This document shows, piece by piece, positions 49,482 to 62,518 of a stretch of DNA of 64,000 nt. Both the position numbers and the translations under genes were made by a program. The DNA comes from Spartobacteria bacterium (GTDB lineage Bacteria > Verrucomicrobiota > Verrucomicrobiia > Chthoniobacterales > UBA10450), in contig PNAS01000075.1 of NCBI GenBank assembly GCA_003169695.1, positions 1 to 64,000 on the forward strand, given 5' to 3'. Every line of letters begins with the position of its first letter. The stretch's first letter is position 1. The notes beneath the pieces were generated by a model, which searched no databases, was not told where the DNA came from, and worked only from the letters and a program-made list of their open reading frames with translations.

Positions 49482-50921
49482 CTACGGCGTTGACGTTTCC
49501 GTCTCCGCCGGATCGAGAGCGACGTCGACGTTGCTCGCACTCGCTCGCGCTCCATCCGTGAGCTCGCGCTGCTTGCGGCCGAGCGAGCGTCCCACGAAAA
49601 CCCACACGCCCGCGATTGGAATGGTCAAGAACGCGATCGCCGCGAGGCTTGCGCCGACGGCTTGGATGCCCATGAACGCCCAGGCCCCGAGGCAATCGCC
49701 GAGGCGATAGATGAAGGTGTCGACGAAGCTCTTGGATTTGTACTTCACCTCGCGCTCGACGACGGTGTAGAGAGCCTCGCGCGCCGGTTGCGCGGTGGCA
49801 AAGTTGCTGATGCGGAGCAGGATTTGCACGCCCGCGAGGACGGCCAACTCCGGCGCGAGCTGGCCCACGGTGAACCCGCGCGCCCCGAGCCAGGGCCCAT
49901 AGATCATCGCCAGCGACAGTGCGATCCATCCGAGCACCGCGATCGCCGGCTGCGAGATCAGCGCAAACGTGATGCCGAACCAACGGATCAGGCGAGCCGT
50001 GAGCAGAAGTTGGATGAGCACCGTGCCGAGCTGCACCCAGAACTCGATGTTAGCAAAGTACTCAGTGCGCACGTCGCGATCGTGAATGGTGAGATCGACG
50101 AGCTTGCCCTGTTGGTAATACAGGAACGTTCCGATCAGCCCGTACATGAACGTGTAGCTCGCGATCCAGCGCAGATAGCTCTGGCTGACGATGAGCTTCA
50201 AGCCACGCCACATGTCCGCCGTCGAGATGGCCGCTGGCGGCGGGGCGTTTTGTCCTGGCGGTGCCGCATCGATACGATGGATGACGACGAGACGGCGCAC
50301 ACTGAAGACCGCGACCTCGAGCAGGACGATCGACAGAAAGAGCAGATTCACACTGCCGATCGGCTTCGCGAGCAAGCTCGCGATCTTCGAGCCAGCCAGC
50401 GCACCGAGCGTTCCGCCGACGCCGATGAAACCAAAGAGCCGCTTGGCCTGGTCGAGGCGCCAGATGTCGGCCATGAACCCGCGGAACACGGAGACGACGA
50501 ACAGGTTGAACACACTGAACCAGATGAAGAACGTGTACGCCGCCGCGAGCTTGGAGCTCTCCGGCAGGAACTTCAGCGCCAGCCAGAACGCGAGCAGGCA
50601 CGCGATCGAAACCCGGTAGACGATCGGAATGAACCGCTTGCGTGGCAGTTTTGTCACAAGCAGCGCGAAGGGCGGGCTGACGACCACCATCGCGACGAGC
50701 GTCCCCGTGAAGAGCCACGGGTATTTATCGGCGCCGCCGTTCAAACCCATCGAGTCGCGCAGCGGTCGCAGCACGAACGTGCTCGCGAGCAGGCTGAAGA
50801 AATAGAGCCACGACCACGCGATTGAGCGCATCTCCCTCGGTTCGATGGCCACGACGCGCTGCAGTGCGCGCACAAACGCACCGGTCTGCGCTTCGTCCGC
50901 ATCGTCGTCGTTCACGCTCAT
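49482..50921 (-). CDS. NTP/NDP-exchange-transporter-like membrane protein
   Basis: The 479-residue protein has about eleven hydrophobic segments and opens like ATP/ADP translocase-like proteins: MRSIAWSWLYFFSLLASTFVLRPLRDSMG, then GVGGTLGALAGSKIAS and, late, RYKSKSFVDTF-like KYKSKSFVDTFIYRLGDCLGAW. These are conserved in the Npt1/TLC-related free-living bacterial group, whose substrates are mostly unknown. Start at ATG 50921 (MSVNDDD) with GGGAG nearby. Base composition looks more G/C-rich than the neighbours, hinting at transfer. It overlaps a truncated paralogous ORF by ATGA. Confidence 0.82.
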   Translation of the reverse strand: MSVNDDDADEAQTGAFVRALQRVVAIEPREMRSIAWSWLYFFSLLASTFVLRPLRDSMGLNGGADKYPWLFTGTLVAMVVVSPPFALLVTKLPRKRFIPIVYRVSIACLLAFWLALKFLPESSKLAAAYTFFIWFSVFNLFVVSVFRGFMADIWRLDQAKRLFGFIGVGGTLGALAGSKIASLLAKPIGSVNLLFLSIVLLEVAVFSVRRLVVIHRIDAAPPGQNAPPPAAISTADMWRGLKLIVSQSYLRWIASYTFMYGLIGTFLYYQQGKLVDLTIHDRDVRTEYFANIEFWVQLGTVLIQLLLTARLIRWFGITFALISQPAIAVLGWIALSLAMIYGPWLGARGFTVGQLAPELAVLAGVQILLRISNFATAQPAREALYTVVEREVKYKSKSFVDTFIYRLGDCLGAWAFMGIQAVGASLAAIAFLTIPIAGVWVFVGRSLGRKQRELTDGARASASNVDVALDPAETETSTP

Positions 50922-51034
50922 GAATAACTCCCGAGGACGACGAAGTTGAAAACGAAGGCGAGGCCGAGCGCGCGCAGCTCGTCCGGCTTCACGTCGACGG
51001 CGCGCTGGCGCAGAGATGTAAGGATGCCGTTCAT
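50918..51034 (-). pseudogene. Truncated transporter paralogue N-terminus
   Basis: A 38-codon frame from ATG 51034 encodes MNGILTSLRQRAVDVKPDEL then RALGLAFVFNFVVLGSYS. It looks like the N-terminus of the same transporter family (V..RP.E.RAL..AF.YFF.VL..YY). The stop TGA overlaps the start of the full-length transporter (ATGA). Its own start overlaps the rhomboid stop (ATGA). It probably marks an internal deletion in a former tandem pair and may still be translated. Confidence 0.78.
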
Positions 51035-51726
51035 CTGGAACTCGAGGCACGAGCACCGGCGAGCACCGGCGAGACTGCATTCAAAGGGAGCACGAGTGCA
51101 ACTGCGGTCCCGACAACCAAGCCGACGACATGCCCGATCATGGTAACGCGTGGTAACACTGAGTAGGTTAGTCCCAAGAAGAGCGGGACCAGGAGACGGA
51201 GTCGAACCAAGCGACTTTGTGAGGGAAGCCTGAAGACCAACACGAGCCCGGCCCCCAGGAGGGCAAATAGTCCGCCCGACGCGCCGAGCGAGACGCCCTG
51301 CGAAGGCCAGAACAGATGTTTCATGAGGATCCCTGCGCAGCTCGCCACCGATCCGCCCAGAAAGATGAGGAGGAGCGACGCGGTCCCAGCGCGGAGTTCG
51401 ACAACGGGTCCGACCAAGAGCAACAGAAGAGTATTGAGCGCGAAATGTGTGAGATCGTAATGTAAGAACCCGGCCGTGAGCAGACGCCAGTATTCGTAAT
51501 GAATCTGACCGCTATCGGGTAGAGCGCCGAGGCCAAGGAGACCCGCATCATTTCCGGCTGCATTTCTCGCGAGTTCGAGGAGGAACGTCGTGCTCATAAC
51601 GCAGAAGATGGCTACCGATCCGAGATAGGTGCGCATGGGGCTTGAGTGTAATGGATACCTAACGCGAACAAGATCAGACACGGGTGGTGAGGGCAAGTGT
51701 GCCTCTTTTTTCATCAATCCAAACAT
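51031..51726 (-). CDS. Rhomboid family intramembrane serine protease
   Basis: The 231-residue protein (or about 201 residues from ATG 51636) has six membrane helices. The rhomboid active site is present: Ser in VSLGASGGLFALLGAG and His in VTMIGHVVGLVVG, preceded by HYEYWRLLTAGFLHYDLTHFALN with the conserved WR and H.N region. It cleaves transmembrane substrates within the bilayer. Which start is used is unclear; the 51636 start (MRTYLGSVAIF) is close to the first helix. Its stop overlaps the truncated transporter leader, so rhomboid, leader and transporter form one coupled transcript. Confidence 0.92.
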   Translation of the reverse strand: MFGLMKKEAHLPSPPVSDLVRVRYPLHSSPMRTYLGSVAIFCVMSTTFLLELARNAAGNDAGLLGLGALPDSGQIHYEYWRLLTAGFLHYDLTHFALNTLLLLLVGPVVELRAGTASLLLIFLGGSVASCAGILMKHLFWPSQGVSLGASGGLFALLGAGLVLVFRLPSQSRLVRLRLLVPLFLGLTYSVLPRVTMIGHVVGLVVGTAVALVLPLNAVSPVLAGARASSSR

Positions 51727-51789
51727 TGTAGGCCGTCTCTGTGAGACGGCGGGCTAATCAAATCCGGCGTCTGACACAGACGCCCTACA
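51727..51789. repeat. TGTAGG palindromic repeat, copy A
   Basis: Two adjacent hairpins, GCCGTCTC TGT GAGACGGC and GGCGTCTG ACA CAGACGCC, joined by an AT-richer spacer and bounded by TGTAGG and CCTACA. Copies B (54875-54936) and C (55677-55745) share the second hairpin exactly or almost so. A further hairpin (TCACGGCG AGAGAG CGCCGTGA, 51793-51814) follows directly. Confidence 0.9.
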
Positions 51790-51832: not shown

Positions 51833-53338
51833 TTATGAGACGGAGCCTTCCGCCCAACGCTTCCGAAGGTAGATAGCATTGATGATCCACGCGATCGGGT
51901 TGAAGCTCAAGATTGTCAACACGACCCACGCCCAGTGGCAGCGCTGGGCGAAGAACCAGGCGAGGACCGCGTAAATGAGGCCGCAGACGATCACGGCCGT
52001 GGCGCCGGATTCAAGGAAGGCCCCGAGACCAAGGCCGTGGATGAACGACATGACGCTAAAGTAGTAACCCCACCTGTAGCCCCTCTTGTCGGGATGGCGC
52101 TGCCGGAAACGACGATTGAGAATGAACGCGACGACAACAGGCAGAATGAGCACGGCAAGAGGGACGCCGATGAGCACAGATGCAACGAGAACCGGTCCGG
52201 GCGAGCTAGCAGAACCGGGAGCGCGATTGGTCGTCACCAATGGTTCGATGTTATCTCCCACAGTTATTACCACCTTCCCTCGAGCGTGACCTTCTTCGAG
52301 ATAACCGAGAGCCTCAGGGAGCTGACTGAGCGTGTAAGTTCTGTCGATAACCGGTTTCACCTTTCCGGTCTGGATGAGATCAGCCAGGATGGTCAGGTCT
52401 TTTCTGTTCATCTCCGCCAGCATCATGCTCATCTCCTGGGTCACGAGCGGTTTCAGCACCAGCATTTTTATCACACCAATCAGAGGACCGGTCCAGCGGC
52501 TGTCGTTTACTCCTCCTCCTCCGATCAGGATGATTTTGCCCTTGGGATCTAAGACGCGCCTGCATTCTGAGAGCGAGCGGTTTCCAACGTTGTCGATAAC
52601 CAGGTCGTAACGTTGCCCGCTTTGGGTGAAGTCCTCTTTCGTGTAATCAATGACGTGATCCGCGCCGATTGATCGGACCATCTCCGCATTCCTGCCACTA
52701 CATACGCCGGTCACCTCAGCGCCGAACGACTTGGCGATCTGAACAGCGAAGGTGCCCACGCCTCCCGACGCGCCGTTGATCAGGACCTTCTGTCCCGGCT
52801 GCACGTGTCCCTTGTCGCGAAGAGCCTGCAATGCGGTGACTGCCGCCACAGGCACTGAAGCCGCCTGCTCGAAAGTCAAGTTAGCCGGTTTCAAGGCCAA
52901 TGCCTTTTCCGAAGCAACTACATACTCGGCAAAAGCGCCAAAACGATTTCCGTAGACCTCATCGCCCGGTTTGAACTGCGTTACGTTCTTGCCCACCGCT
53001 TCAACCGTCCCCGCGTAGTCAACGCCTAGTCGTGTGATTTTCGGTTTGAGTAGCCCAAACTCTACCAGGCGACCGAGGTAGGGCGTGCCTTCCATGTAAT
53101 GCCAGTCGAGTGGATTGACCGAAGCTCCACGCACTCTGATCAGGAGTTGATTGTCCAAAGGAACAGGCTTTTCGATTTCTTCAAGCCGCAGGACGTCGGG
53201 TGAACCAAAGTCGCGATAGACAATGGCTTTCATCCGTGGAGCAACGCCAGGACTTGGTGTCTGGGCCAGCGCTGCGCCGGTAAACAAAAGCGCAGCCGTG
53301 CAGATTGCAGTGATTAAGAGGTGTAAATGTGCTTTCAT
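51833..53338 (-). CDS. Exported MDR (quinone-reductase-like) enzyme with C-terminal membrane domain
   Basis: The 501-residue protein opens with a signal-like segment (HLLITAICTAALLFTGAALAQ). A medium-chain dehydrogenase domain (about 36-365) follows: MKAIVYRDFGSPDVLRLEEI, RLGVDYAGTVEAVGKNVTQFKPGDEVYG, then the NADPH loop INGASGGVGTFAVQIAKSFGAEVTGVCSGR and GADHVIDYTKEDF. It lacks the zinc ligands of alcohol dehydrogenases, matching the quinone-oxidoreductase subgroup. Residues about 385-501 add three or four membrane helices, unlike the sister genes at 55803, 57679 and 58930, which use one N-terminal helix. Substrate unknown. Confidence 0.88.
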   Translation of the reverse strand: MKAHLHLLITAICTAALLFTGAALAQTPSPGVAPRMKAIVYRDFGSPDVLRLEEIEKPVPLDNQLLIRVRGASVNPLDWHYMEGTPYLGRLVEFGLLKPKITRLGVDYAGTVEAVGKNVTQFKPGDEVYGNRFGAFAEYVVASEKALALKPANLTFEQAASVPVAAVTALQALRDKGHVQPGQKVLINGASGGVGTFAVQIAKSFGAEVTGVCSGRNAEMVRSIGADHVIDYTKEDFTQSGQRYDLVIDNVGNRSLSECRRVLDPKGKIILIGGGGVNDSRWTGPLIGVIKMLVLKPLVTQEMSMMLAEMNRKDLTILADLIQTGKVKPVIDRTYTLSQLPEALGYLEEGHARGKVVITVGDNIEPLVTTNRAPGSASSPGPVLVASVLIGVPLAVLILPVVVAFILNRRFRQRHPDKRGYRWGYYFSVMSFIHGLGLGAFLESGATAVIVCGLIYAVLAWFFAQRCHWAWVVLTILSFNPIAWIINAIYLRKRWAEGSVS

Positions 53339-53410
53339 AACGAATCAGACTGAATCATTTGGTTTGTTGTGGTCGAGGTTGAAAACACAGGCTATTGAGC
53401 AAACGCCGAA

Positions 53411-54100
53411 TCAGGAGGCTGGGGCGTCGGATGGTTGCACCTGCGCCCCCCAGATCAAAAGCCAGAGAATAATCAAGAGCTCCCCAACACCCAGAATCAT
53501 CAACTTGTGAGCAATGTGCTCGTAAGCTGGGAAAAGCAAAGATGTCGTGCTAACGGCCAGATCAGCAAAACAGCCGACGATCAGGATGATGCCAAGAATT
53601 CGAGGAATAAACCCGGATCGAAATACAAGAAGCCCGAACGGTAGGAGCCAGAGACCCCACAGTGCTGTGACCGCGTTTATTCCATAGTTACGCAAGCTCA
53701 GAAATCCCATTATCAGGGCATCCAGTTGATGTTTGTCGAATGCTGCCCAGTAATCGGCCCCGTTCAAAAGTACGAGTGGAGCGATCCCGCAGAGCATAGT
53801 GGCAAACGTCATCGGCACCTGAACTAGAACCAGTGCCACCATCAGTGCGGCCAGTTTCTTGTTCACTCCTTTGAGCAATTGATACAGAGTCAGCACAAGG
53901 AAGACAAAAACGATCTGCGACGCCAGATCACTGACGATACAGAGCCGGTAAAACAGCTGATGAGAATTAATCTTGTTAGCGGTGGCTGCGGCATCACCAC
54001 GTACTATGAAAGAAGGGATCGTCAGACCAACGGTGGAGGTCACTGCCAATAGCAGATACAGTAGTCCTGCGATTCTTGCGGTCTTTTTGATTGAACTCAT
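53411..54100 (-). CDS. DUF4386-like membrane protein
   Basis: The 229-residue protein has six or more hydrophobic segments. It opens SSIKKTARIAGLLYLLLAVTS, the (K)TARIAGLLYL signature of DUF4386 proteins, and later has VFLVLTLYQLLKGVNKKLAALM, FRSGFIPRILGIILIVGCFADL and a C-terminal helix. The family is membrane-embedded with no assigned biochemical role. It sits in the array of MDR enzymes, between the first MDR gene and the truncated copy. I start at ATG 54100; TTG 54112 is possible. Two more members are at 54862 and 56915. Confidence 0.85.
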   Translation of the reverse strand: MSSIKKTARIAGLLYLLLAVTSTVGLTIPSFIVRGDAAATANKINSHQLFYRLCIVSDLASQIVFVFLVLTLYQLLKGVNKKLAALMVALVLVQVPMTFATMLCGIAPLVLLNGADYWAAFDKHQLDALIMGFLSLRNYGINAVTALWGLWLLPFGLLVFRSGFIPRILGIILIVGCFADLAVSTTSLLFPAYEHIAHKLMILGVGELLIILWLLIWGAQVQPSDAPAS

Positions 54101-54131
54101 GTCCTCTCTCAATCTATCAAATCACTGTCGT

Positions 54132-54353
54132 TCACTTGAGTCCCAAGACAGGATCGTCAGTCGGATCGGGCTTGCCGATCTCTTCAAGTCGAAGGACATC
54201 GGGTGAACCAAACTCGTGATAGACGATAGCTTTCATCAGTGGGGCAGTGCTCGCTGTAGCGGCGGTCTGTGACCGCCGATCAGGCTCCTGGTTGAGAGCT
54301 GCGTCTGCGAACAAAAGCGCAACCGTGCACGTCGTAGTGATCAAGAGTTGCAA
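54132..54353 (-). pseudogene. Truncated MDR dehydrogenase
   Basis: The 73-codon frame encodes a signal-like LLITTTCTVALLFADAALNQ and then, after DRRSQTAATAS, the MDR start APLMKAIVYHEFGSPDVLRL and EEIGKPDPTDDPVLGLK before a stop. The first and last parts parallel the 51833-53338 enzyme (MKAIVYRDFGSPDVLRLEEI). The insert between them is the read-through of a CGGCGGTC TGT GACCGCCG palindrome. The rest of the enzyme is lost. Confidence 0.88.
54260..54278. repeat. Palindrome inserted in a truncated gene
   Basis: CGGCGGTC, loop TGT, GACCGCCG: perfect 8-bp arms, preceded by TGTAG as in the other repeats. It contributes residues DRRSQTAAT to the broken frame. Confidence 0.8.
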
Positions 54354-54862
54354 ATGTGTTTTCCTAAAGAACCAGGGTTCTGGAGTCTAACGTTCCGGAG
54401 TGAAAGTACCAGGCCGACGCAGATGAAAGCGAGGAATAAGAGATTTACGAAGGATCCGGATGATGTGGCGTTCCTGACCATAGGAAGGAAATGAAGGATC
54501 AGTTTTCTGCTCAGATCCTCCAGCAGAAGGAGCGCAAACATGAAGGGAATCATGCTGCGGTATCGCATCAGGACCAAGATACAGAGCAAACAAATCACAA
54601 AGTGTTCGAGTCCCCAGGTCGCAAAAAGCGAAACGACCGTCTGGGCACCGGCGGGCGCCAAGGCGTCGAGTGGGGCTCCGTCGGCGGAAACTGCCACAAA
54701 ATAACCGTTGAAGATGCAATTCAAGCTCATGGCAATATTCATGAGCACGAGCAGGGCAAAGAACCAGAGCGCGAGCTTATGCCCACGATAGCCATTGTCG
54801 ATATGTTGGGGAATAAGCGTTATTGTCATGTCCCAGGGCGACCTCATCGCGATCGGCTGCAT
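54341..54862 (-). CDS. Four-helix membrane protein, unknown function
   Basis: The 173-residue protein has a short polar N-terminus and four hydrophobic segments: KLALWFFALLVLMNIAMSL, AQTVVSLFATWGLEHFVICLLCILVLM, MIPFMFALLLLEDLSRKLILH and VNLLFLAFICVGLVLSL. Acidic and basic residues between helices 3 and 4 (LLLEDLSRKL) could matter for function. No family recognised. The start at 54862 shares a base with the stop of the preceding DUF4386-like gene (TAATG), which favours this start. The stop lies inside the truncated MDR frame. Confidence 0.72.
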   Translation of the reverse strand: MQPIAMRSPWDMTITLIPQHIDNGYRGHKLALWFFALLVLMNIAMSLNCIFNGYFVAVSADGAPLDALAPAGAQTVVSLFATWGLEHFVICLLCILVLMRYRSMIPFMFALLLLEDLSRKLILHFLPMVRNATSSGSFVNLLFLAFICVGLVLSLRNVRLQNPGSLGKHICNS

Positions 54863-55641
54863 TACTCCACCGATTGTAGGCCGTCTCTGTGAGACGGCGA
54901 GCTATCCGATCCGGTGTCTGACACAGACGCCCTACAAGACACGCCTGGCCGTAATCCCTTAAACAAAAGCCAAAAACTGAGTACCATTTCGAAAAGGGCC
55001 ATGGGCGAATCGAACCAGTAGTCGTTCACGATCTTGTTGAAGTGGGGGAAAATGAGGAAAACGAAGGCACAGATGACGCACCATGCAGACGAGATCACAC
55101 CGACGGCAGCTAATGCCCTGGGGATATAGTTCGACTTAAGCCATAGGTAGCTGCAAACGGTGGCTGCCAAGCCAAAGAACGGCAGGCCGACGTAATAGTC
55201 ATCGAAATTCGCTGCGACGTATAGCCGCGCCAAGACTTGCAGTCGATCGGCCTCAAAGACTTGCAAGTAACTAGCACTACCCAAGAGCCGCAGCGCGCTC
55301 AGCATATTAAGCGTCGTAAGTAGCCACAACAGGGCGAAGACCATGCGGAAGAGTGCCCCAATCAAGGCGAGACCCCGGTTCACGGGCCTGAGAATCACGT
55401 AGAGCGCTGCGAGTAAAAGGACAACGTCTGCGCTATAAAGAAGGAAGCAGGTGGCGGTGAGACGAAATTGTCTTTCGTGCGCCACGATGTTCCGAGCGGT
55501 TTCGGCAACATTACCCGGGACAATGAGAGGGTTGAGCAGCACATAGTTAGCGAACACCACAATCGCCATGCCGAACAGGTAAGTGAATCCCGCGACCTTT
55601 GCGGCCGTCCGTTGTGAGTTGTCGATCTTACTGATTGTCAT
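54862..55641 (-). CDS. DUF4386-like membrane protein with repeat-derived C-terminus
   Basis: The 259-residue protein opens with DNSQRTAAKVAGFTYLFGMA, then has about six helices, RPVNRGLALIGALFRM and LWLKSNYIPRALAAVGVISSAW, matching the DUF4386 family order. The start is ATG 55641 behind GGAAATCAA. The last 25 or so residues (RASVSDTGSDSSPSHRDGLQ then SVE) are encoded by the palindromic repeat at 54875-54936, so its native tail has been replaced or extended. It is coupled to the next gene by TAATG. Repeat copy C lies just upstream. Confidence 0.85.
   Translation of the reverse strand: MTISKIDNSQRTAAKVAGFTYLFGMAIVVFANYVLLNPLIVPGNVAETARNIVAHERQFRLTATCFLLYSADVVLLLAALYVILRPVNRGLALIGALFRMVFALLWLLTTLNMLSALRLLGSASYLQVFEADRLQVLARLYVAANFDDYYVGLPFFGLAATVCSYLWLKSNYIPRALAAVGVISSAWCVICAFVFLIFPHFNKIVNDYWFDSPMALFEMVLSFWLLFKGLRPGVSCRASVSDTGSDSSPSHRDGLQSVE
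54875..54936. repeat. TGTAGG palindromic repeat, copy B
   Basis: GCCGTCTC TGT GAGACGGC followed by GGTGTCTG ACA CAGACGCC between TGTAGG and CCTACA. It lies within the 3' end of the DUF4386-like coding sequence. Confidence 0.92.
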
Positions 55642-55676
55642 TTGATTTCCTTCCAGACGTGGTTGCAAGGGTCATT

Positions 55677-55745
55677 TGTCGGACGTTTCTGTGAAACGCC
55701 ATCGGCTTTCTTCCCAGGATCGGCGTCTGACACAGACGCCCTACA
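55677..55745. repeat. TGTAGG palindromic repeat, copy C
   Basis: The right hairpin GGCGTCTG ACA CAGACGCC and CCTACA end are identical to copy A. The left hairpin (GGACGTTTC TGT GAAACGCC) is diverged. It lies between the DUF4386-like gene start and the stop of the next MDR gene. Confidence 0.88.
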
Positions 55746-55802
55746 ATCCGGATTCCTTTTGAGCGCGCGTAACACAGATTTCTCGTCGGTCAGGTTTTGT
55801 TG

Positions 55803-56918
55803 TTATTCCACAGTTACTACTACTTTTCCTCGAGCGTGTCCTGTTTCCAGGTATCGAAGAGCGTCAGGGGTCTTATTCAATTTGTAAGTCCTATCGATGA
55901 CTGGCGTCATCTTTCCATCCCGCATGAGATCAGCGAGGATGGTCAGGTCCGCTTCGTTCAGGTTGGCAATATAGGTGATGAATTTCTGGCTAACGAACCA
56001 AGACCCCACATAAGCATTGAGCTCACCAAGCAAACGACCCGCGGAACCGTCGTGCCATCCTGCTCCTCCGATGCCAGCCATGACACAGATACCATTTGGA
56101 TTCAAGATCCGTTGACGCTCGGAGAACGAATGGTTCCCGACAAGGTCATAAATCAGATCGTATCGCTGATCGGTTTTGGTGAAATCTTCCTTCGTGTAGT
56201 CGATCACGTGATCTGCACCGATTGATCGGACCATCTCGAGATTTCGCGTGCTACATACGCCAGTCACTTCTGTCCCGAACGATTTCGCTATCTGCACCGC
56301 GAAAGTGCCCACGCCTCCTGACGCGCCGTTGACCAGGACCTTCTGGCCAGGCTTAATCTTTCCTTTATCGCGAAGACCTTGCAGAGCGGTGATGGCTGCG
56401 ACGGGAACAGAAGCCGCTTGCTCAAACGTCATGTTCGCGGGTTTGAGCGCGACCGCGCGACTGGCCAGAACGCACACGTACTCGGCCAAAGCCCCGTTTT
56501 TCCCACCGAACACCTCATCGCCAGGCTTGAACTCAGTCACGTTTTTGCCGACTGCTTCCACTGTCCCCGCATAGTCGACGCCTAATCGAGTGTCTTTCGG
56601 TTTGCGCATCCCCAGGATCGGGCGGATCAACAACGGCCCGCGAATTGTAAGGTCCAGGGGATTCAAGGAAGCCGCGTGAACTTTGACCAAAACCTGGTTG
56701 TCTGTCGGCACCGGCTTCTCAACGTCTACCAACGTTAGAACTTCGGGTCCCCCATACTCGCAATGAACGATAGCTTTCATGGGATTTGCCGGAGCACCGG
56801 TCTTGCGATCACAGTCATTAGTCGACCTCCAGTAAGCGATGAACCCCACCAGGAACGTCAATATTAACGCGACCAAAATCGCGCGCGTACCCCACCTTAA
56901 AATTCGTTTTAGCTTCAT
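55803..56918 (-). CDS. Membrane-anchored MDR (quinone-reductase-like) enzyme
   Basis: The 371-residue protein has a single N-terminal helix (RWGTRAILVALILTFLVGFIAYW) after MKLKRIL, then a complete MDR catalytic domain: MKAIVHCEYGGPEVLTLVDV, RLGVDYAGTVEAVGKNVTEFKPGDEVFG, NGASGGVGTFAVQIAKSFGTEVTGVCSTR and GADHVIDYTKEDFTKTDQRYDLIYDLVGN. No zinc ligands. The enzyme is therefore tethered to the membrane, probably with the soluble part outside if the short leader stays inside (inference). ATG 56918 overlaps the stop of the DUF4386-like gene at 56915 (ATGA); longer starts run through that gene. Confidence 0.9.
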   Translation of the reverse strand: MKLKRILRWGTRAILVALILTFLVGFIAYWRSTNDCDRKTGAPANPMKAIVHCEYGGPEVLTLVDVEKPVPTDNQVLVKVHAASLNPLDLTIRGPLLIRPILGMRKPKDTRLGVDYAGTVEAVGKNVTEFKPGDEVFGGKNGALAEYVCVLASRAVALKPANMTFEQAASVPVAAITALQGLRDKGKIKPGQKVLVNGASGGVGTFAVQIAKSFGTEVTGVCSTRNLEMVRSIGADHVIDYTKEDFTKTDQRYDLIYDLVGNHSFSERQRILNPNGICVMAGIGGAGWHDGSAGRLLGELNAYVGSWFVSQKFITYIANLNEADLTILADLMRDGKMTPVIDRTYKLNKTPDALRYLETGHARGKVVVTVE

Positions 56919-57676
56919 ATGCGTAACGAGGCTTGTTCCTTCCATCGTTGTTCGTTCACGCCCTTCACGAGCAGCCATAGCATCAGTGATATTTCCCCGG
57001 GGCCGGCGAGCGCGAGGTTGTAGGGATACAGATAGTGTGCGAGCGGCCGCCACAGAAGGGTCAGGTAACCAAAGCCGGCAAGGACCTCCAGCACGCCAAT
57101 AATTCGAGGCAGGAAGGTTGACCTGAAGATGAGGTAGCCGATCAGGACACACCAGAACCCGAAGAACACCAGGCCGATGTCGTAAGCCTGCGCATTTAAT
57201 TTGAGAAGCATGAGGGCCAAAGCCTGCAACTGTTCAGGCGCAAATGCGCTCAATGAGCTCTTGCCTTGCAGGACGAGCAAGGGGGCGAGGTGAAAAAGAC
57301 TGCTAAGGGCCCACATCGCGCATCCCAGGAGCATGACGAACCCAGCGAGTAACGAGACGCTCCTATTGACCGGCTTAAAGAGACCATAGAAGAGAACCGC
57401 CCAAATGAGATGGAACGGCACAGTCATCAGGGAAGCCACGAACCCTAGCCGAAATAGAGACTCGTGCGAAAGGATGTTGGCCGCTGACGCGGTTGCGCTG
57501 GCGGGCACAACGAGCATGTCGAGAACGACCATTTGGCCAAAAACTGACGTCAGGCTTCCGAGCAAATAGGAGACGCCAGCCATCCGGGCCTTGAAACGCG
57601 GCGACGCTTCCATCGTTGAACGTTCACGCCCATCACTGTCGCCTGAGATACCGGCTGTTCGCTTCATCTCGTGCAT
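56915..57676 (-). CDS. DUF4386-like membrane protein
   Basis: The 253-residue protein has a polar N-terminal 30 residues and then ARMAGVSYLLGSLTSVFGQ, the family opening, and about six helices with GLFKPVNRSVSLLAGFVMLLG and FRSTFLPRIIGVLEVLAGFGYL. I choose ATG 57676 because AAAAGGTG precedes it; the frame also allows GTG 57682, which would overlap the MDR stop as GTGA. The end (NEQRWKEQASLRI) is read from the same DNA that opens the next MDR gene. Paired with that enzyme by overlap, which supports a shared complex. Confidence 0.83.
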   Translation of the reverse strand: MHEMKRTAGISGDSDGRERSTMEASPRFKARMAGVSYLLGSLTSVFGQMVVLDMLVVPASATASAANILSHESLFRLGFVASLMTVPFHLIWAVLFYGLFKPVNRSVSLLAGFVMLLGCAMWALSSLFHLAPLLVLQGKSSLSAFAPEQLQALALMLLKLNAQAYDIGLVFFGFWCVLIGYLIFRSTFLPRIIGVLEVLAGFGYLTLLWRPLAHYLYPYNLALAGPGEISLMLWLLVKGVNEQRWKEQASLRI

Positions 57677-57678
57677 TG

Positions 57679-58812
57679 TCACCTTTTATCGTCCTCCTCC
57701 ACAGTGATAACCATTTTACCGCGAGCGTGTCCCTGGTCGAAAATGCGGAAAGCCTCAGGGGCGTCATTTAATTTGCAGGTCCGCTCGATGACCGGTGTGA
57801 TCTTTCCCGTCTGTGCGAGGTCGCCCAGCATGATGAGATCCTCTTTGCTCATTTTGGTCATGTACTGGGCGAACTTTTGATTGGTGAACGACGCTAATCC
57901 ACGTGCTATGAAAAGATTACCAATGATGCGTCCCAGGGCCTCGCCTGTTTTTATCCCGGCTCCGCCCATGCCGGCCAAAACGCAGATGCCTTTGGGATTT
58001 AACACGCGACGGCGTTCGGCGAAGGAATGGTTGGCAACGTTATCGAAGATCACGTCGTAACGCTGGTCGCTCTTGGTGAAATCCTTTTTTGTGTAATCGA
58101 TGACGTGATCGGCGCCGATCGATCGGACAAGATCGACATTCCTTGTGCTGCAAACAGCCGTAACCTCTGCGCCAAGCGATTTGGCGATTTGCACGGCGAA
58201 CGTTCCTACACCTCCGGTCGCACCGTTGATCAAGACCTTCTGCCCGGGCTGAATCTTTCCCTCGCGCAGGCCCTGCAGTGCAGTAAGTCCTGCTAGCGGG
58301 ATCGAAGCCGCTTGCTCAAAGGTGACGTTCGCTGGCTTCATAACCAACGTTCGCTCGGAAGCACAGGCATACTCGGCCAGCGAGCCCCGACAGAACCCGA
58401 ACACTTCGTCGCCCGGTTTGAATTGGGTGATGTTCTTGCCGACCGCTTCGACCAAGCCGGCCACATCGCGGCCAAGCCGCGTGTCTCTTGGTTTGCGCAA
58501 CCCGAACATCAAACGACCGATCCACGAATCGCGGATCAAGTACACATCAAGCGCGTTGAGCGAAGCCGCCCGAACTTTAATCAAGATCTGGTCATCGTTC
58601 GGCACAGGTTTCTCAACGTCATCAAGCTTCACGACATCGGGGGGACCGTATTCGCAGAAACAAATTGCTTTCATAGGATTAATTGGAGCTGCCGTGTTGC
58701 GATCACATTCGTTAGTAGACCTCCAGTAAGCGATGAACCCCCACAGGAACGCCAATATCAACGCGACGAAAATCGCGCGCGTACTCCACTTTAGAATGCG
58801 CTTTAGCTTCAT
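57679..58812 (-). CDS. Membrane-anchored MDR (quinone-reductase-like) enzyme
   Basis: The 377-residue protein has one N-terminal helix (KWSTRAIFVALILAFLWGFIAYW) after MKLKRIL, then the MDR domain: MKAICFCEYGPPDVVKLDDV, RLGRDVAGLVEAVGKNITQFKPGDEVFG, NGATGGVGTFAVQIAKSLGAEVTAVCSTR and GADHVIDYTKKDFTKSDQRYDVIFDNVAN. It ends in EEDDKR, beyond the usual VITVE end. Same layout as the 55803 and 58930 genes, with sequence differences throughout, so these are old rather than fresh duplicates. ATG 58812 chosen; a start nine codons upstream is possible. Confidence 0.9.
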   Translation of the reverse strand: MKLKRILKWSTRAIFVALILAFLWGFIAYWRSTNECDRNTAAPINPMKAICFCEYGPPDVVKLDDVEKPVPNDDQILIKVRAASLNALDVYLIRDSWIGRLMFGLRKPRDTRLGRDVAGLVEAVGKNITQFKPGDEVFGFCRGSLAEYACASERTLVMKPANVTFEQAASIPLAGLTALQGLREGKIQPGQKVLINGATGGVGTFAVQIAKSLGAEVTAVCSTRNVDLVRSIGADHVIDYTKKDFTKSDQRYDVIFDNVANHSFAERRRVLNPKGICVLAGMGGAGIKTGEALGRIIGNLFIARGLASFTNQKFAQYMTKMSKEDLIMLGDLAQTGKITPVIERTCKLNDAPEAFRIFDQGHARGKMVITVEEDDKR

Positions 58813-58929
58813 CCGCCTAACGAGGCTTGCTCCTTCCATCGTTGTTCGTTCACGTAGAGGGCGGCCGCGATCCTGGATTGTGTCTTGAGTGAGTTCATCG
58901 TTCTGCCGTTTCCGTAGTGAGGTCGCGTT

Positions 58930-60045
58930 CTACTCCACAGTGATTACTACTTTTCCTCGCGCGTGGCCTGTTTCGAAATACCGCATCGCCTCCGCGGTCT
59001 CGCTCAACTTGTAAGTCCGGTCGATGACCGGTGTAATCTTCCCCGCTTGCATGAGGTCGCTCAACAACTTCAGATCCTCTTTGTCCAGTTTCGTCCCATA
59101 ACTGACGAACTTCTGACGAACGAACCGCGACAACAGATTCGCCTTGAAACCCCCAATAATACGCCCCCACGCTTCCGGGTGGAGTCCTGCTCCTCCGATT
59201 CCGGCAAGGACGCAGATGCCATTAGGAGTTAAGACCCGACGGCGATCTGAGAACGAGTGGTTTTGAACGTTATCAAAAATCACGTCGTACCGCTGGTCGC
59301 CTTTGGTGAAATCCTCTTTGGTGTAGTCAATGACGTGATCTGCGCCGATGGATCGGACAAGCTCCACTTTTCCCGTACTGCATACGGCTGTTACTTCTGC
59401 GCCGAATGACTTCGCTATCTGGACAGCGAAAGTGCCCACGCCTCCCGTTGCGCCGTTGATCAGTACCTTTTGCCCCGGCTGAATCTTACCTTGGCGCAGA
59501 CCCTGCAAGGCGGTGAATCCCGCCCAAGCTACAGAGCCCGCTTGTTCAAACGTTACATTAGCTGGCTTAATAACCAATCCTCGCTCGCGAGCACATGCAT
59601 ACTCCGCAAGAGTAGAACGACCCACGCCAAAGACTTCGTCGCCCACCTTGAACAGCGTCACGTTTTTGCCAACCGCTTCAACCTGGCCGGCCAGATCGTT
59701 GCCTAGCCGTGTCTTCTCTGGCTTGCGCAGCCCGAGCCCGAGCATCAGGCGAAGCGGCCACGGCCCGCGCATCACGCCCGGATCAATAAAATTGAGGGAA
59801 GCCGCGCGAACTCTGATCAAGACTTGATCGTCATTCGGAACAGGCTTTTCAACGTCTTCAAACTTGAGAACGTCAGGTGAACCATACTCGCAAAAACGAA
59901 TGGCTTTCATCGGAACGTTCAGAGCAGCCATCTGGTCACAGTCGTTAGTCGATCTCCAGTAAGCGATGAATCCCACGAGAAACGCCAATATCAACGCGAG
60001 CAAGATCGCTCGTACGATCCACTTTAGAATACGCTTGAGTTTCAT
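58930..60045 (-). CDS. Membrane-anchored MDR (quinone-reductase-like) enzyme
   Basis: The 371-residue protein begins MKLKRILKWIVRAILLALIL with one membrane helix, and then has MKAIRFCEYGSPDVLKFEDV, RLGNDLAGQVEAVGKNVTLFKVGDEVFG, NGATGGVGTFAVQIAKSFGAEVTAVCSTG and GADHVIDYTKEDFTKGDQRYDVIFDNVQN, ending VVITVE. It is the first gene of the array in transcription order. The gap to the next MDR gene (about 117 bases) holds no gene. The ADOP permease gene ends 43 bases upstream on the same strand, so read-through from it is possible. Confidence 0.9.
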   Translation of the reverse strand: MKLKRILKWIVRAILLALILAFLVGFIAYWRSTNDCDQMAALNVPMKAIRFCEYGSPDVLKFEDVEKPVPNDDQVLIRVRAASLNFIDPGVMRGPWPLRLMLGLGLRKPEKTRLGNDLAGQVEAVGKNVTLFKVGDEVFGVGRSTLAEYACARERGLVIKPANVTFEQAGSVAWAGFTALQGLRQGKIQPGQKVLINGATGGVGTFAVQIAKSFGAEVTAVCSTGKVELVRSIGADHVIDYTKEDFTKGDQRYDVIFDNVQNHSFSDRRRVLTPNGICVLAGIGGAGLHPEAWGRIIGGFKANLLSRFVRQKFVSYGTKLDKEDLKLLSDLMQAGKITPVIDRTYKLSETAEAMRYFETGHARGKVVITVE

Positions 60046-60088: not shown

Positions 60089-62518
60089 TTACTCCGCGCG
60101 GAGCGCCTCGATGGGATTGATGCGGGCAGCGCGGCGAGCGGGAAGCCAGCAGGCAACCAGTGCGACAGTAACGAGCACAAACGTAGTGCCGATCATTACG
60201 GGAGTATTGTTGAAATGCATGCCGGGATTGCCGGCGGCCAGAAACCGGGATACGCCCAGCGCGCCGACAAGCCCCAGGGCCGATCCAACGAGCGCCATTT
60301 TCACCCCGGAAACCAAGACGATGCCGGTGATGTCCCTGACGCAGGCCCCCAACGCGAATCGAATCGCAAACTCGCCAGCGCGCTGCGCCATCGTGCGGGC
60401 GATAACGCCGTAGATACCTAACGAGGCCAGCGCGAGCCCGAGCACTCCAAAGGTGGCCAGCATGTCCCGCAGGACGGCGCTTTGGTAGTTGGCGCGATCG
60501 ATCGTCACGTCGGCAGGCTGGAGCTGGCGCACCGGCAAGTCCGGATCGAGTCCCGTCATGACGTCCCGGATAGCAGGAACGAGGGTAGATGGCGCAACGC
60601 CGGTGGTGCGCACGGCGATCTCGTTGTAGGGCCGCGGGTCTTGAGCCATGGGCTGATAGAGTTGGAAGGTTACCGGGCCTGGATCCGGCATGACCGACTT
60701 TATGTCGGCCGCGATGCCAACAATTTCGCCCCATTGGAGATTTCCGATCCCGGTTTGAGCGACGCGACGACCGATCGGGTTTTCGTTCCCAAACAGCCCT
60801 GTGGCCATGGCCTGGCTGATGATGAAAACTTTCGGCGAGGTCAGCGTGTCGCGTTCGTTGAAGGCGCGCCCGGCGAGGACCCGTGTCTGGTAGGTGTCAA
60901 AATAGTGTGGACTGATGCTATTAACGACCGCAGCGGGTTCGCGCCCGGATTGAGGTAGCTCGCGGCCCTCGACCAGATACTTGCGGACGTCAGCCCAATT
61001 GAAGAAGGGTGTGGAGGACGAGATGCTGACGGACGCTACGCCGGGCACGGACTGTAACCGTTCCAACGTGAGGCGATGGAAGGCCGCGATCTTGTCGGCA
61101 TCGCCGTAGCTTCCTGCTGGAAGCACGACAGTTCCGGTGAGAAGGCGCTCGGACTGCCAGCCGCCACGAGTGTTATTCAACTCATCGAGACCACGCATAT
61201 AGAGCGCGGCACCCGCGAGCAAAATCATGGCGAGGGCGAACTGACCGACGATGAGCATCTGACGAAAGCGTTGATGACCGCGGCCTCCGGTCATGCCACG
61301 CGCGCCGCTCTTGAGCGTGTCGTTTACATTGAGTCGCATGGCGAAGAGCGCTGGCGCAAGACCGAACGCGACAGCTGTGACGAGCGAAGCCGCGAAGGCC
61401 CAGCCGAGCACACGCCAGTCGAGCGCGAGCGCAACGCTTTCGCCATTTTCTCCCGTGGATCGAACCGCGAGCCAATCAGCGAACCACTGCGCAACGAGGA
61501 TGGCGCAGGCGCCGCCGGCGAAAGCCAGCAAAAGCGACTCGGCAATCAGCGGGCGGAGTAACTGGAGGCGCGAGGCGCCGAGGGCCGAACGCACGGCGAA
61601 CTCACGGGCGCGGGCCATCGTCCGGGCGAGGAGAAGGTTCGCCAGGTTCGAGCAGCCGATGAGCAACACGAAACCGGAAAGGCCGATAAGCATCGCCAGG
61701 ATGCCAGGACCATTCTTCGACATGATGGTGCTGTTAAGCGAAACGGTGCGCCAGATGCTGCCGGCGTTTACCTCGGGAAAATCGGTCGCGAGGCGCGCGC
61801 CGAAGTTGGCGATAAAACCTTCGGCTTCGGCGCGAGAAAGTTTTTCGGAGCGACGGCCAATAAGCCTGAGAATGGTGCCGCGGCGGTCGACGGATTTCTG
61901 TTGGTCGAGAGCAAGTGGCCGGAAGAAATCGAACTCTCCGAGGTGACGCCAATCGTTTAACGTTGCCGGCAGCACGCCAACAATTTCGTGAGGTTCGCCA
62001 TCGACGCGGATGATGCGGCCGATGATGTCACCTTTGCCGCCGAAGCGCTGTTGCCAGCAACGTTGACTGATGAGAACGACGCGATCGTTGCCCGGAGAAT
62101 CTTCTCGCGGCAGGAAATCGCGGCCGAGCTGCGGTTGGACGCGGAGCACGGGGAAAAAATTAGCGGTGGTGCGAAGGGCGTGGACCATCTCGGCGGGTTG
62201 GCCCGGTTCGGAAAGGCTCGTGTCTCCAAGCGCGTAGGCCCCGATCTCACCAAAGGAGTGCATCTCCCGCTGCAGATCGAGGAAATCGGCCGGCGAGACA
62301 CGACCCTGTGGATTTTGCGGCGTCGCGCGGTCGATGCGGTCCAATTGCGCGCTCTCGGGATAGGGCAGCGGTTTCAGCAGAATCGAATTGAGCACGCTGA
62401 ACATGGCGGTGTTGGCGCCGATGCCGAGCCCGAGCGTGATGATGGCGAGGAGGGTGAACCCGGGGCTGCGCGCGAGCGAGCGGACGGCTAAGCGAAGACT
62501 GGATAATAACATAAGCAA
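60089..62518 (-). CDS. ADOP/MacB-type ABC transporter permease
   Basis: The 809-residue protein has the MacB/FtsX layout in duplicate. An N-terminal LRLAVRSLARSPGFTLLAIITLGLGIGANTAMFSV is followed by a large periplasmic MacB-PCD domain (about 55-260), three helices, then a second periplasmic domain (about 480-650) and three more helices, ending AARINPIEALRAE. This matches the duplicated orphan permeases common in Acidobacteriota and Verrucomicrobiota, which usually lack a linked ATPase; none is visible here. Likely function is export or mechanical coupling rather than import. It lies upstream of the MDR array on the same strand. Confidence 0.93.
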   Translation of the reverse strand: MLMLLSSLRLAVRSLARSPGFTLLAIITLGLGIGANTAMFSVLNSILLKPLPYPESAQLDRIDRATPQNPQGRVSPADFLDLQREMHSFGEIGAYALGDTSLSEPGQPAEMVHALRTTANFFPVLRVQPQLGRDFLPREDSPGNDRVVLISQRCWQQRFGGKGDIIGRIIRVDGEPHEIVGVLPATLNDWRHLGEFDFFRPLALDQQKSVDRRGTILRLIGRRSEKLSRAEAEGFIANFGARLATDFPEVNAGSIWRTVSLNSTIMSKNGPGILAMLIGLSGFVLLIGCSNLANLLLARTMARAREFAVRSALGASRLQLLRPLIAESLLLAFAGGACAILVAQWFADWLAVRSTGENGESVALALDWRVLGWAFAASLVTAVAFGLAPALFAMRLNVNDTLKSGARGMTGGRGHQRFRQMLIVGQFALAMILLAGAALYMRGLDELNNTRGGWQSERLLTGTVVLPAGSYGDADKIAAFHRLTLERLQSVPGVASVSISSSTPFFNWADVRKYLVEGRELPQSGREPAAVVNSISPHYFDTYQTRVLAGRAFNERDTLTSPKVFIISQAMATGLFGNENPIGRRVAQTGIGNLQWGEIVGIAADIKSVMPDPGPVTFQLYQPMAQDPRPYNEIAVRTTGVAPSTLVPAIRDVMTGLDPDLPVRQLQPADVTIDRANYQSAVLRDMLATFGVLGLALASLGIYGVIARTMAQRAGEFAIRFALGACVRDITGIVLVSGVKMALVGSALGLVGALGVSRFLAAGNPGMHFNNTPVMIGTTFVLVTVALVACWLPARRAARINPIEALRAE

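Follow-up and report, generated by a model that had tools for sequence, protein, structure and literature searches.

The mitochondrial matrix protein RTN4IP1 and the chloroplast envelope protein ceQORH use NADPH to reduce quinone intermediates or oxoenes (PMC10830421, PMC5343027). By sequence similarity, RTN4IP1/OPA10 and ceQORH belong to the same MDR fold group as the reductases described below; unlike those, however, they are eukaryotic, have no DUF4386 partner, and are not predicted to be exported into a periplasm. Furthermore, an N-terminal anchor helix of the kind described here is, to our knowledge, absent from both. With respect to the periplasm, a precedent for an NADP-using enzyme is glucose-fructose oxidoreductase of Zymomonas, a member of another superfamily that is exported in the folded state by Tat with its cofactor bound; twin-arginine signals direct the export of such folded, cofactor-loaded enzymes.

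The ytrGABCDEF operon of Bacillus subtilis combines the gene of a GntR-family regulator with ABC genes and responds to lipid II cycle inhibitors by induction (PMC12772383). In relatives of the genome examined here, the module upstream of comparable arrays likewise combines a GntR regulator with ABC transporter genes. We know of no MDR or DUF4386 gene in ytrGABCDEF.

Composition and neighborhood of the array

The window analyzed is a stretch of 64,000 nucleotides from a Spartobacteria bacterium (contig PNAS01000075.1, positions 1 to 64,000). The sequence-only reading had described four intact and one truncated MDR reductases, three DUF4386 proteins, and one four-helix protein on a single strand, and all of these were found by Pfam searches and inspection of open reading frames, at positions 51833-60045 of the minus strand. 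In minus-strand order, preceded by the upstream neighbor, the features are as follows.

60089-62518, minus strand: ADOP-family ABC permease directly upstream of the array (TIGR03434, 775.9 bits against a cut-off of 622.3)
58930-60045, minus strand: MDR1, first gene of the array, 371 amino acids; anchor MKLKRILKW-TM-AYWRSTNDC, then a QOR-type MDR domain
58809-58898, minus strand: DUF4386 remnant (MNSLKTQSRIAAALYVNEQRWKEQASLGG) with an internal deletion; its stop and the MDR2 start overlap as ATGA; repeats D4, D7, and D11
57679-58812, minus strand: MDR2, N-terminal anchor and MDR domain; start at 58812, or at 58839 (MEGASLVRRM)
56915-57682, minus strand: DUF4386-a, six transmembrane helices (PF14329, E 2.4e-45)
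55803-56918, minus strand: MDR3, N-terminal anchor and MDR domain; ATGA overlap with DUF4386-a
54862-55641, minus strand: DUF4386-b (PF14329); last ~25 residues encoded by dispersed repeats
54341-54862, minus strand: four-helix membrane protein without a Pfam match
54132-54353, minus strand: MDR4 remnant of the signal-peptide type, truncated at 73 amino acids, start codon lost; repeat D9
53411-54100, minus strand: DUF4386-c (PF14329, E 3e-38)
51833-53338, minus strand: MDR5, N-terminus resembling a signal peptide (...GAALAQ), followed by an MDR domain and a C-terminal membrane tail of 131 residues

MDR domains (PF08240 with PF13602/PF00107) were assigned to 58930-60045, 57679-58839, 55806-56918, and 51833-53338, with PF08240, PF00107, and PF13602 all above cut-off in the four intact MDRs. 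PF14329 was assigned to 56915-57682, 54862-55668, and 53411-54112, scoring 132.3, 145.5, and 155.5 bits (gathering threshold 27.6) and covering profile positions 1-210 of 210 in all three copies. According to whole-genome searches, the 4.1-Mb genome has no DUF4386 gene besides these three, and the four closest MDR copies likewise lie within the array; the clustering is thus not a matter of chance. The four-helix gene is essentially private to this genome, with one partial relative among 117 related genomes.

MDR3 overlaps the stop of DUF4386-a by ATGA, with its start at 56918 rather than 57152; the TAATG of DUF4386-b is present, but is built by the dispersed repeat that encodes the end of the protein, one part of which occurs in 61 copies in the genome.

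Comparable arrays occur across the Chthoniobacterales (Ca. Udaeobacter-type) family, and in most cases a GntR/ABC-transporter module lies upstream of them. Among the family loci examined, 25 contain an ABC permease, which has no Pfam match, and 24 contain an ABC ATPase. In the window's own genome (locus L107), the ATPase and permease were found and no upstream GntR gene was recognized, the GntR module being present in relatives. The ADOP permease adjoins arrays in several relatives as well.

MDR class, membrane anchor, and orientation

The best full-length NCBIfam model for each intact array MDR is TIGR02824 (PIG3-family NAD(P)H quinone oxidoreductase), at 168-184 bits, far below the curated cut-off of 296.8; this model lacks the N-terminal anchor of the array proteins. 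Among solved structures, the closest are those of enone and quinone oxidoreductases, RTN4IP1 (2vn8) and ceQORH (5a3j). The GxxGxxG nucleotide motif and the Tyr of the VIDY motif are each kept in all 51 anchored MDRs; position 225 is Arg or Lys in 43 of the 51 and Gly in eight, with Lys at 226 in six others or overlapping cases. The zinc-ligand GHE motif is absent from the family consensus, in which the matching stretch reads G-x-D-x-A-G. The array MDRs are classed as reductases that bind NADPH but lack zinc, within the quinone oxidoreductase/enone reductase group, and a role as quinone or lipid reductases, as first proposed, is plausible.

The membrane helix claimed for the N-termini of these otherwise normally soluble enzymes proved real and conserved across the family. 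On sequence comparison, it is a family-specific feature with the pattern MKxKRxLKW-TM-AYWxSTNDC. In all 40 sequences measured, its N-terminal flank is more positive than its C-terminal flank (mean +3.9 versus −0.2). In MDR5 and in a second clade of paralogous MDRs, signal-peptide-like starts take the place of the anchor. Furthermore, Cys36 and Cys52 are both present in 50 sequences, both absent from 24, and never found singly (one motif variant having been read by hand), a co-occurrence that amounts to just three or four independent changes. The loop following the first helix of the MDR5 tail is strongly positive (NRRFRQRHPDKRGYR), which would place the MDR domain outside. Taken together, the flank charges, paralogue signal peptides, and cysteine pair suggest that, on balance, the MDR domain faces the periplasm.

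Such an orientation would be unusual. NADPH is not known to be available in the periplasm, yet the NADPH site is strictly conserved, so that a nicotinamide enzyme appears to be on the membrane's "wrong" side. No twin-arginine signal is present in the array MDR anchors, in contrast to the Tat-exported Zymomonas glucose-fructose oxidoreductase, and no report of an exported MDR enzyme was found within the limits of our search wording. If the MDR domains do face the periplasm, a nicotinamide-dependent reductase works in a compartment where NADPH is not expected, and either the cofactor or the electrons must reach it.

The strongest competing explanation, although rather unlikely, is that the N-terminal helix does no more than tether a cytosol-facing NADPH reductase to the inner membrane for action on membrane quinones or oxidized lipids, after the manner of RTN4IP1 in the mitochondrial matrix and ceQORH at the chloroplast envelope. 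This accords with the full conservation of the NADPH site and with the activity of the nearest solved relatives on quinones and oxoenes (PMC10830421, PMC5343027). It also accords with ancestry: in other phyla, MDRs that pair with DUF4386 are unanchored, so the ancestral pair would have had a soluble, cytosolic MDR. Export is nonetheless predicted by the 40 of 40 flank charges, the signal-peptide-like starts of MDR5 and the second clade, the cysteine pair, and the charges of the MDR5 tail. The unanchored ancestral MDR, the lack of any known periplasmic NADPH, and the absence of twin-arginine signals count, in turn, against the periplasmic reading.

The missing periplasmic NADPH would cease to be a problem if the anchored MDRs were non-enzymatic sensors, binding substrates or nucleotides for the ABC/DUF4386 system, and the diverged paralogues and single-gene transfer would fit the recognition of varied compounds. 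Since all NADPH-contact motifs examined are conserved, however, such a role is improbable.

DUF4386 as a candidate membrane partner

The AlphaFold2 model of DUF4386-a (pLDDT 95.8) predicts with confidence a six-helix membrane protein. A Foldseek search of the model against the PDB returned no match at E ≤ 0.001, and with regard to six-helix haem proteins of the cytochrome b561/STEAP-like kind, structural alignment with b561 by VIA-align gave a Z of 8.2, in a range common for helical bundles and hence uninformative. No His is found among the nearly invariant columns, and the sequence profile yields, at most, weak matches to complex I chain 4L. No mention of DUF4386 was found among 5.39 million open papers.

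Isolated MDR-DUF4386 pairs, the search for which had been proposed as a check, were detected in Bacteroidota, Acidobacteriota, an alphaproteobacterium (Yoonia), and a haloarchaeon. Outside the family, an MDR is the neighbor of DUF4386 in 7 of 128 rank-1 positions, compared with 0 of 228 at ranks 4-6. In Bacteroidota, an MDR adjoins DUF4386 in 11 of 32 loci, on the same strand and frequently overlapping; the haloarchaeal genes overlap by one base. The pairs thus resemble the array in joining the same two families, adjacent, on the same strand, and often overlapping; most, however, differ from it in having one soluble MDR without an N-terminal helix. Gene order also varies, with the MDR mostly first in Bacteroidota and DUF4386 often first in Acidobacteriota and Verrucomicrobiota. 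The gene association across phyla is real, and a physical partnership of the two proteins is probable. DUF4386 now has, with cross-phylum support, a candidate partner enzyme in addition to a confident model, and its function becomes testable.

AlphaFold2 modeling of a natural fused DUF4386-MDR5 frame (locus L073) yielded no docked model (pLDDT 64, pTM 0.44). The alignment of mixed families had put DUF4386 rows on the MDR domain, as judged from ~20% identities; a smaller alignment was used, and the model was still poor. The fused frame occurs in one genome only and could reflect a lost stop codon.

Our best explanation, a tentative one, is that an old MDR-DUF4386 partnership has expanded, with recombination, in a manner specific to this family. 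The MDR would have gained an N-terminal anchor or signal peptide in the Chthoniobacterales family, so that its domain most likely lies at the periplasmic side of the inner membrane and probably faces that side. Lipophilic quinones or α,β-unsaturated carbonyls would be reduced at the envelope, in a process coupled to efflux, with DUF4386 as a six-helix membrane partner binding or passing substrate or reducing power; the ABC and ADOP transporters next to the array may act on the same class of envelope-active compounds. This substrate class, together with a role in resistance, is a less likely possibility still. A bolder version, which we regard as unlikely, is that NADPH-dependent MDRs were relocated to the periplasmic face on two or more occasions within one family, as the anchored array type and as the signal-peptide clade encoded elsewhere in the genome, with the six-helix DUF4386 supplying the enzyme with reducing power or cofactor from across the membrane; if true, a trans-envelope reductase system of this kind would be new.

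Remnants, gene order, and duplication history

The array also bears marks of recombination. The 58809-58898 reading frame, overlooked earlier, joins the N-terminus of one DUF4386 type to the C-terminus of another and is a fourth DUF4386 now reduced to an internally deleted remnant; in a relative (L066), the order DUFc-DUFa-MDR2 is still unbroken. The MDR4 remnant has AGG where a paralogue has its ATG start. Array gene order is shuffled between related genomes, and the alternation of MDR and DUF4386 genes is not significantly better than that obtained by shuffling (P = 0.07 for the window, P = 0.13 for 30 family arrays).

The remnants at 58809-58898 and 54132-54353, the repeats at junctions, the shuffled order, and frame breaks in relatives would fit a recombination hot spot that collects and decays related sequences, its neighbors sharing no joint function. 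The intact genes tested, however, are under purifying selection (dN/dS 0.11-0.25), and the same MDR-DUF4386 neighborhood occurs in an archaeon and in distant phyla that have no such arrays, making this explanation doubtful at best.

DUF4386-a, -b, and -c are mutually 26-32% identical, whereas each has an orthologue of its own, at 55-61% identity, in one Blastocatellia (Acidobacterial) locus with a single MDR, and a family-only DUF4386 clade is rejected (p-AU 0.0002). The MDR copies are 56-74% identical and form one family-level group with weak support (72/61). By these comparisons, the three DUF4386 types are older than the family, whereas the MDR copies multiplied within it. Given these separate histories, the duplicated two-gene unit of the sequence-only reading fails, independent duplication having been named beforehand as the refuting outcome; within the limits of sampling, the two trees refute it. 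Co-evolved pairs arising by tandem duplication of an MDR-DUF4386 unit are therefore highly improbable, despite the alternating order in the window and the contiguous DUFa-MDR3 and MDR2-DUFa-MDR3 blocks kept in two genomes (G295 and G309, respectively), the more so as the alternation does not exceed shuffled expectation and the block shared by five genomes of other genera is MDR1 alone.

This MDR1 block consists of a single gene with gene-exact ends, 88-90% identical to genes in those five genomes. Single genes move between genera, with low synonymous divergence. The organisms belong to the Ca. Udaeobacter group, which comprises globally abundant soil bacteria reported to gain from antibiotic release (PMC7343977), and an exchanged cluster of envelope enzymes and efflux genes would be relevant to its ecology.

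Array content and history

On the minus strand, positions 51833-60045 hold four intact MDR genes and one truncated one (MDR1 to MDR5, numbered from 60045 downward, MDR4 being truncated), three DUF4386 genes (DUF4386-a, -b, and -c, in the same order), and one four-helix membrane gene (TM4). This content, described in the sequence-only reading, was borne out by the sequence and by Pfam, which assigns ADH_N plus ADH_zinc_N or ADH_zinc_N_2 to the MDRs and DUF4386 to the three membrane proteins over their full length. A search of the whole 4.14 Mb genome found no DUF4386 besides these three, and the nearest relatives of MDR1 within the genome are all array members, with the remaining paralogues at ~41% identity or less. 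The start of MDR3 was corrected to 56918, in ATGA overlap with the stop of DUF4386-a. MDR4 is missing its start codon in addition to its body, and the four-helix protein (54341-54862) matches no family and has a single partial relative among 117 related genomes. A small frame separates MDR1 from MDR2:

58809-58898, minus strand, small frame with a start like DUF4386-c (MSSIKKTARIAGLLY) and an end like DUF4386-a (VNEQRWKEQASL)

The stop of this frame overlaps MDR2 in exactly the manner of DUF4386-a over MDR3. From its sequence, the frame looks like a DUF4386 pair collapsed through deletion; locus L066 keeps the uncollapsed order DUFc-DUFa-MDR2.

The alternation of the two gene types had been read as a duplicated two-gene unit, a view that fails on both order and phylogeny. 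Alternation is not significantly better than in shuffled order (P 0.07 in the window; P 0.13 over 30 arrays), and non-alternating runs such as DDDDMMM were observed. The window DUF4386 proteins share only 26-32% mutual identity, and each matches a different gene of Blastocatellia locus L171 (with a single, soluble MDR), at 61%, 59%, and 55%. In a tree of 23 DUF4386 proteins, Acidobacterial members occur in all three groups, and a tree forcing the DUF4386 proteins of the window's Chthoniobacterales family together was rejected (p-AU 0.0002). The window MDRs, in contrast, share 56-74% mutual identity, and those of the family form one group, with weak support (72/61). Since the DUF4386 groups predate the family whereas the MDRs show the opposite pattern, the two were not duplicated as a pair. 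Orthologous MDR subgroups are common to several genera, and therefore most of the MDR duplications date from early in the family.

Anchored reductases and their NADPH site

Nearly all family array MDRs with a readable start begin with MK-x-KR-x-LKW, one hydrophobic stretch, and AYWxSTNDC. Among the 289 genomes of a phylum sample, matches of full length that cover this N-terminal anchor were found only in the sample's three family members, the others beginning near residue 45, and the anchor is absent from DUF4386-linked MDRs of other phyla. Flank charge is more positive on the N side than on the other in 40 of 40 measured sequences (mean +3.9 vs -0.2). By the positive-inside rule, this suggests that the enzyme domain lies on the outer, periplasmic side of the membrane. 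In place of the anchor, MDR5 has a start that reads as signal-peptide-like and ends GAALAQ; such starts also occur in a second, distant MDR clade common to the family, an apparent second origin of exported MDR enzymes, represented in the window's genome by two genes outside the window:

G000:C34:79612-80538 (L105), MDR gene with a signal-peptide-like start
G000:C46:93186-94106 (L106), MDR gene with a signal-peptide-like start

The Cys of NDC and a first-strand Cys (KAIxxC) occur together in 50 sequences, with neither in 24 and one alone in none, taking the L056 variant YSTSTNEC as read by eye. Because the tree has just three or four changes behind this co-occurrence, the pair is a suggestive pointer only.

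Across 51 anchored MDRs, the nucleotide motif and the VIDY tyrosine are invariant, and in nearly all, position 225 or 226 holds a basic residue for the NADPH phosphate; from known structures of the MDR family, we take these residues to be NADPH contacts. The zinc-ligand GHE is absent from the array MDRs, dN/dS is 0.11-0.25, and the structures closest to them come from enone and quinone oxidoreductases, RTN4IP1, and ceQORH. A conserved NADPH site and a putative periplasmic position are hard to reconcile, which is the main question raised by the array and the reason for interest in it. The most economical account would be a membrane-associated NADPH reductase acting on lipophilic electrophiles or quinones; it would pair with the membrane protein DUF4386 as a set within an envelope/efflux operon, its genes being amplified and passed on singly within the family. 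The membrane side, the MDR-DUF4386 complex, and the substrate are what we infer.

DUF4386 and its neighboring genes

The AlphaFold2 model of DUF4386 (131 sequences; mean pLDDT 95.8, pTM 0.90) has six long helices. No PDB chain matched it at E <= 0.001; the Z of 8.2 to cytochrome b561 is one that helical bundles often reach, and the nearly invariant columns include no histidine. At L073:11359-13719, a single open frame of 786 aa, possibly a fusion or possibly a lost stop codon, runs through DUF4386, an MDR5-type MDR, and a C-terminal membrane tail; AlphaFold2 gave no docked model of the complex from it.

Isolated MDR-DUF4386 pairs, which the sequence-only reading had proposed seeking in other genomes, do exist, as adjacent genes were seen in non-family loci. 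Near DUF4386 in 69 such loci, MDRs were counted at rank one (7/128), rank two (2/122), rank three (1/111), and beyond (0/228). An adjacent same-strand MDR was found in 11/32 Bacteroidota, 2/39 Acidobacteriota, and 1/10 Firmicutes loci, these being best-scoring, non-random loci, with the Bacteroidota ones mostly from a phylum sample. On a haloarchaeal plasmid (L108), DUF4386 and MDR share one base and an ester cyclase adjoins; Yoonia also has a pair, in the order MDR-DUF4386.

The window genome belongs to a Chthoniobacterales MAG group and, among named relatives, lies closest to "Spartobacteria" palsa MAGs; the DUF4386 of Candidatus Udaeobacter is of the same kind. DUF4386 is present in 39 of 117 related genomes, often in multiple copies, and the fetched loci show MDR/DUF4386 arrays of variable order in many family genera. 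Upstream or nearby are an ABC permease-like protein (25 loci, a cluster that takes in, via a fused frame, a few SnoaL-only members), an ABC ATPase (24), and a GntR regulator (8), with ADOP permeases and SnoaL proteins as further recurrent neighbors. One open frame at L063:3332-4759 joins an ABC permease-like protein to a SnoaL domain, and SnoaL genes occur in further arrays (L054, L060, L081, L099, and L186). Some Acidobacteriota loci (e.g., L148, L154, L164, and L180) have this ABC module ahead of DUF4386 and no MDR. DUF4386 arrays also exist independently, as an Acidobacteriota contig (L308; G771:C292) has about nine DUF4386 matches and fragments in 10 kb and no MDR.

Gene exchange, repeats, and flanking genes

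MDR1 forms a block whose ends coincide exactly with those of the gene, at 88-90% identity in five genomes from other genera. Its dS is 0.27-0.34, vs 0.76-1.18 for the ABC ATPase (three of the five genomes), 0.99 for rpoB (genome G304), and 1.25 for the adjacent MDR3 orthologue at L061. For DUF4386-a and a gene of genome G309, dS is 0.15, vs 3.2, near saturation, for rpoB. Because of these low values, single genes seem to move between genera. Many compared genomes are MAGs; mis-binning is unlikely for the G304 copy of MDR1, as its contig is 141 kb long.

The 3′ end of DUF4386-b, including the TAATG junction, is formed by a dispersed repeat:

51726-51788, 54874-54935, and 55722-55744, palindromic dispersed repeat, GTAGGGCGTCTGTGTCAGACGCC and a GTCTCACAGAGAC relative

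A genome-wide count gave 61 copies of the first motif, vs 0 in the reversed control, and composite copies lie on both sides of the MDR5-DUFc-MDR4-TM4 segment. One transporter-like multi-helix protein and one rhomboid-like protein (49482-51726) adjoin the array, in a block conserved with MDR5 in genome G290 (93.6% identity, 3.9 kb). A TPR protein (46972-48993) with the N-terminal membrane start FFxELKRRNVYKVAVAY... has relatives near arrays in 8 loci.
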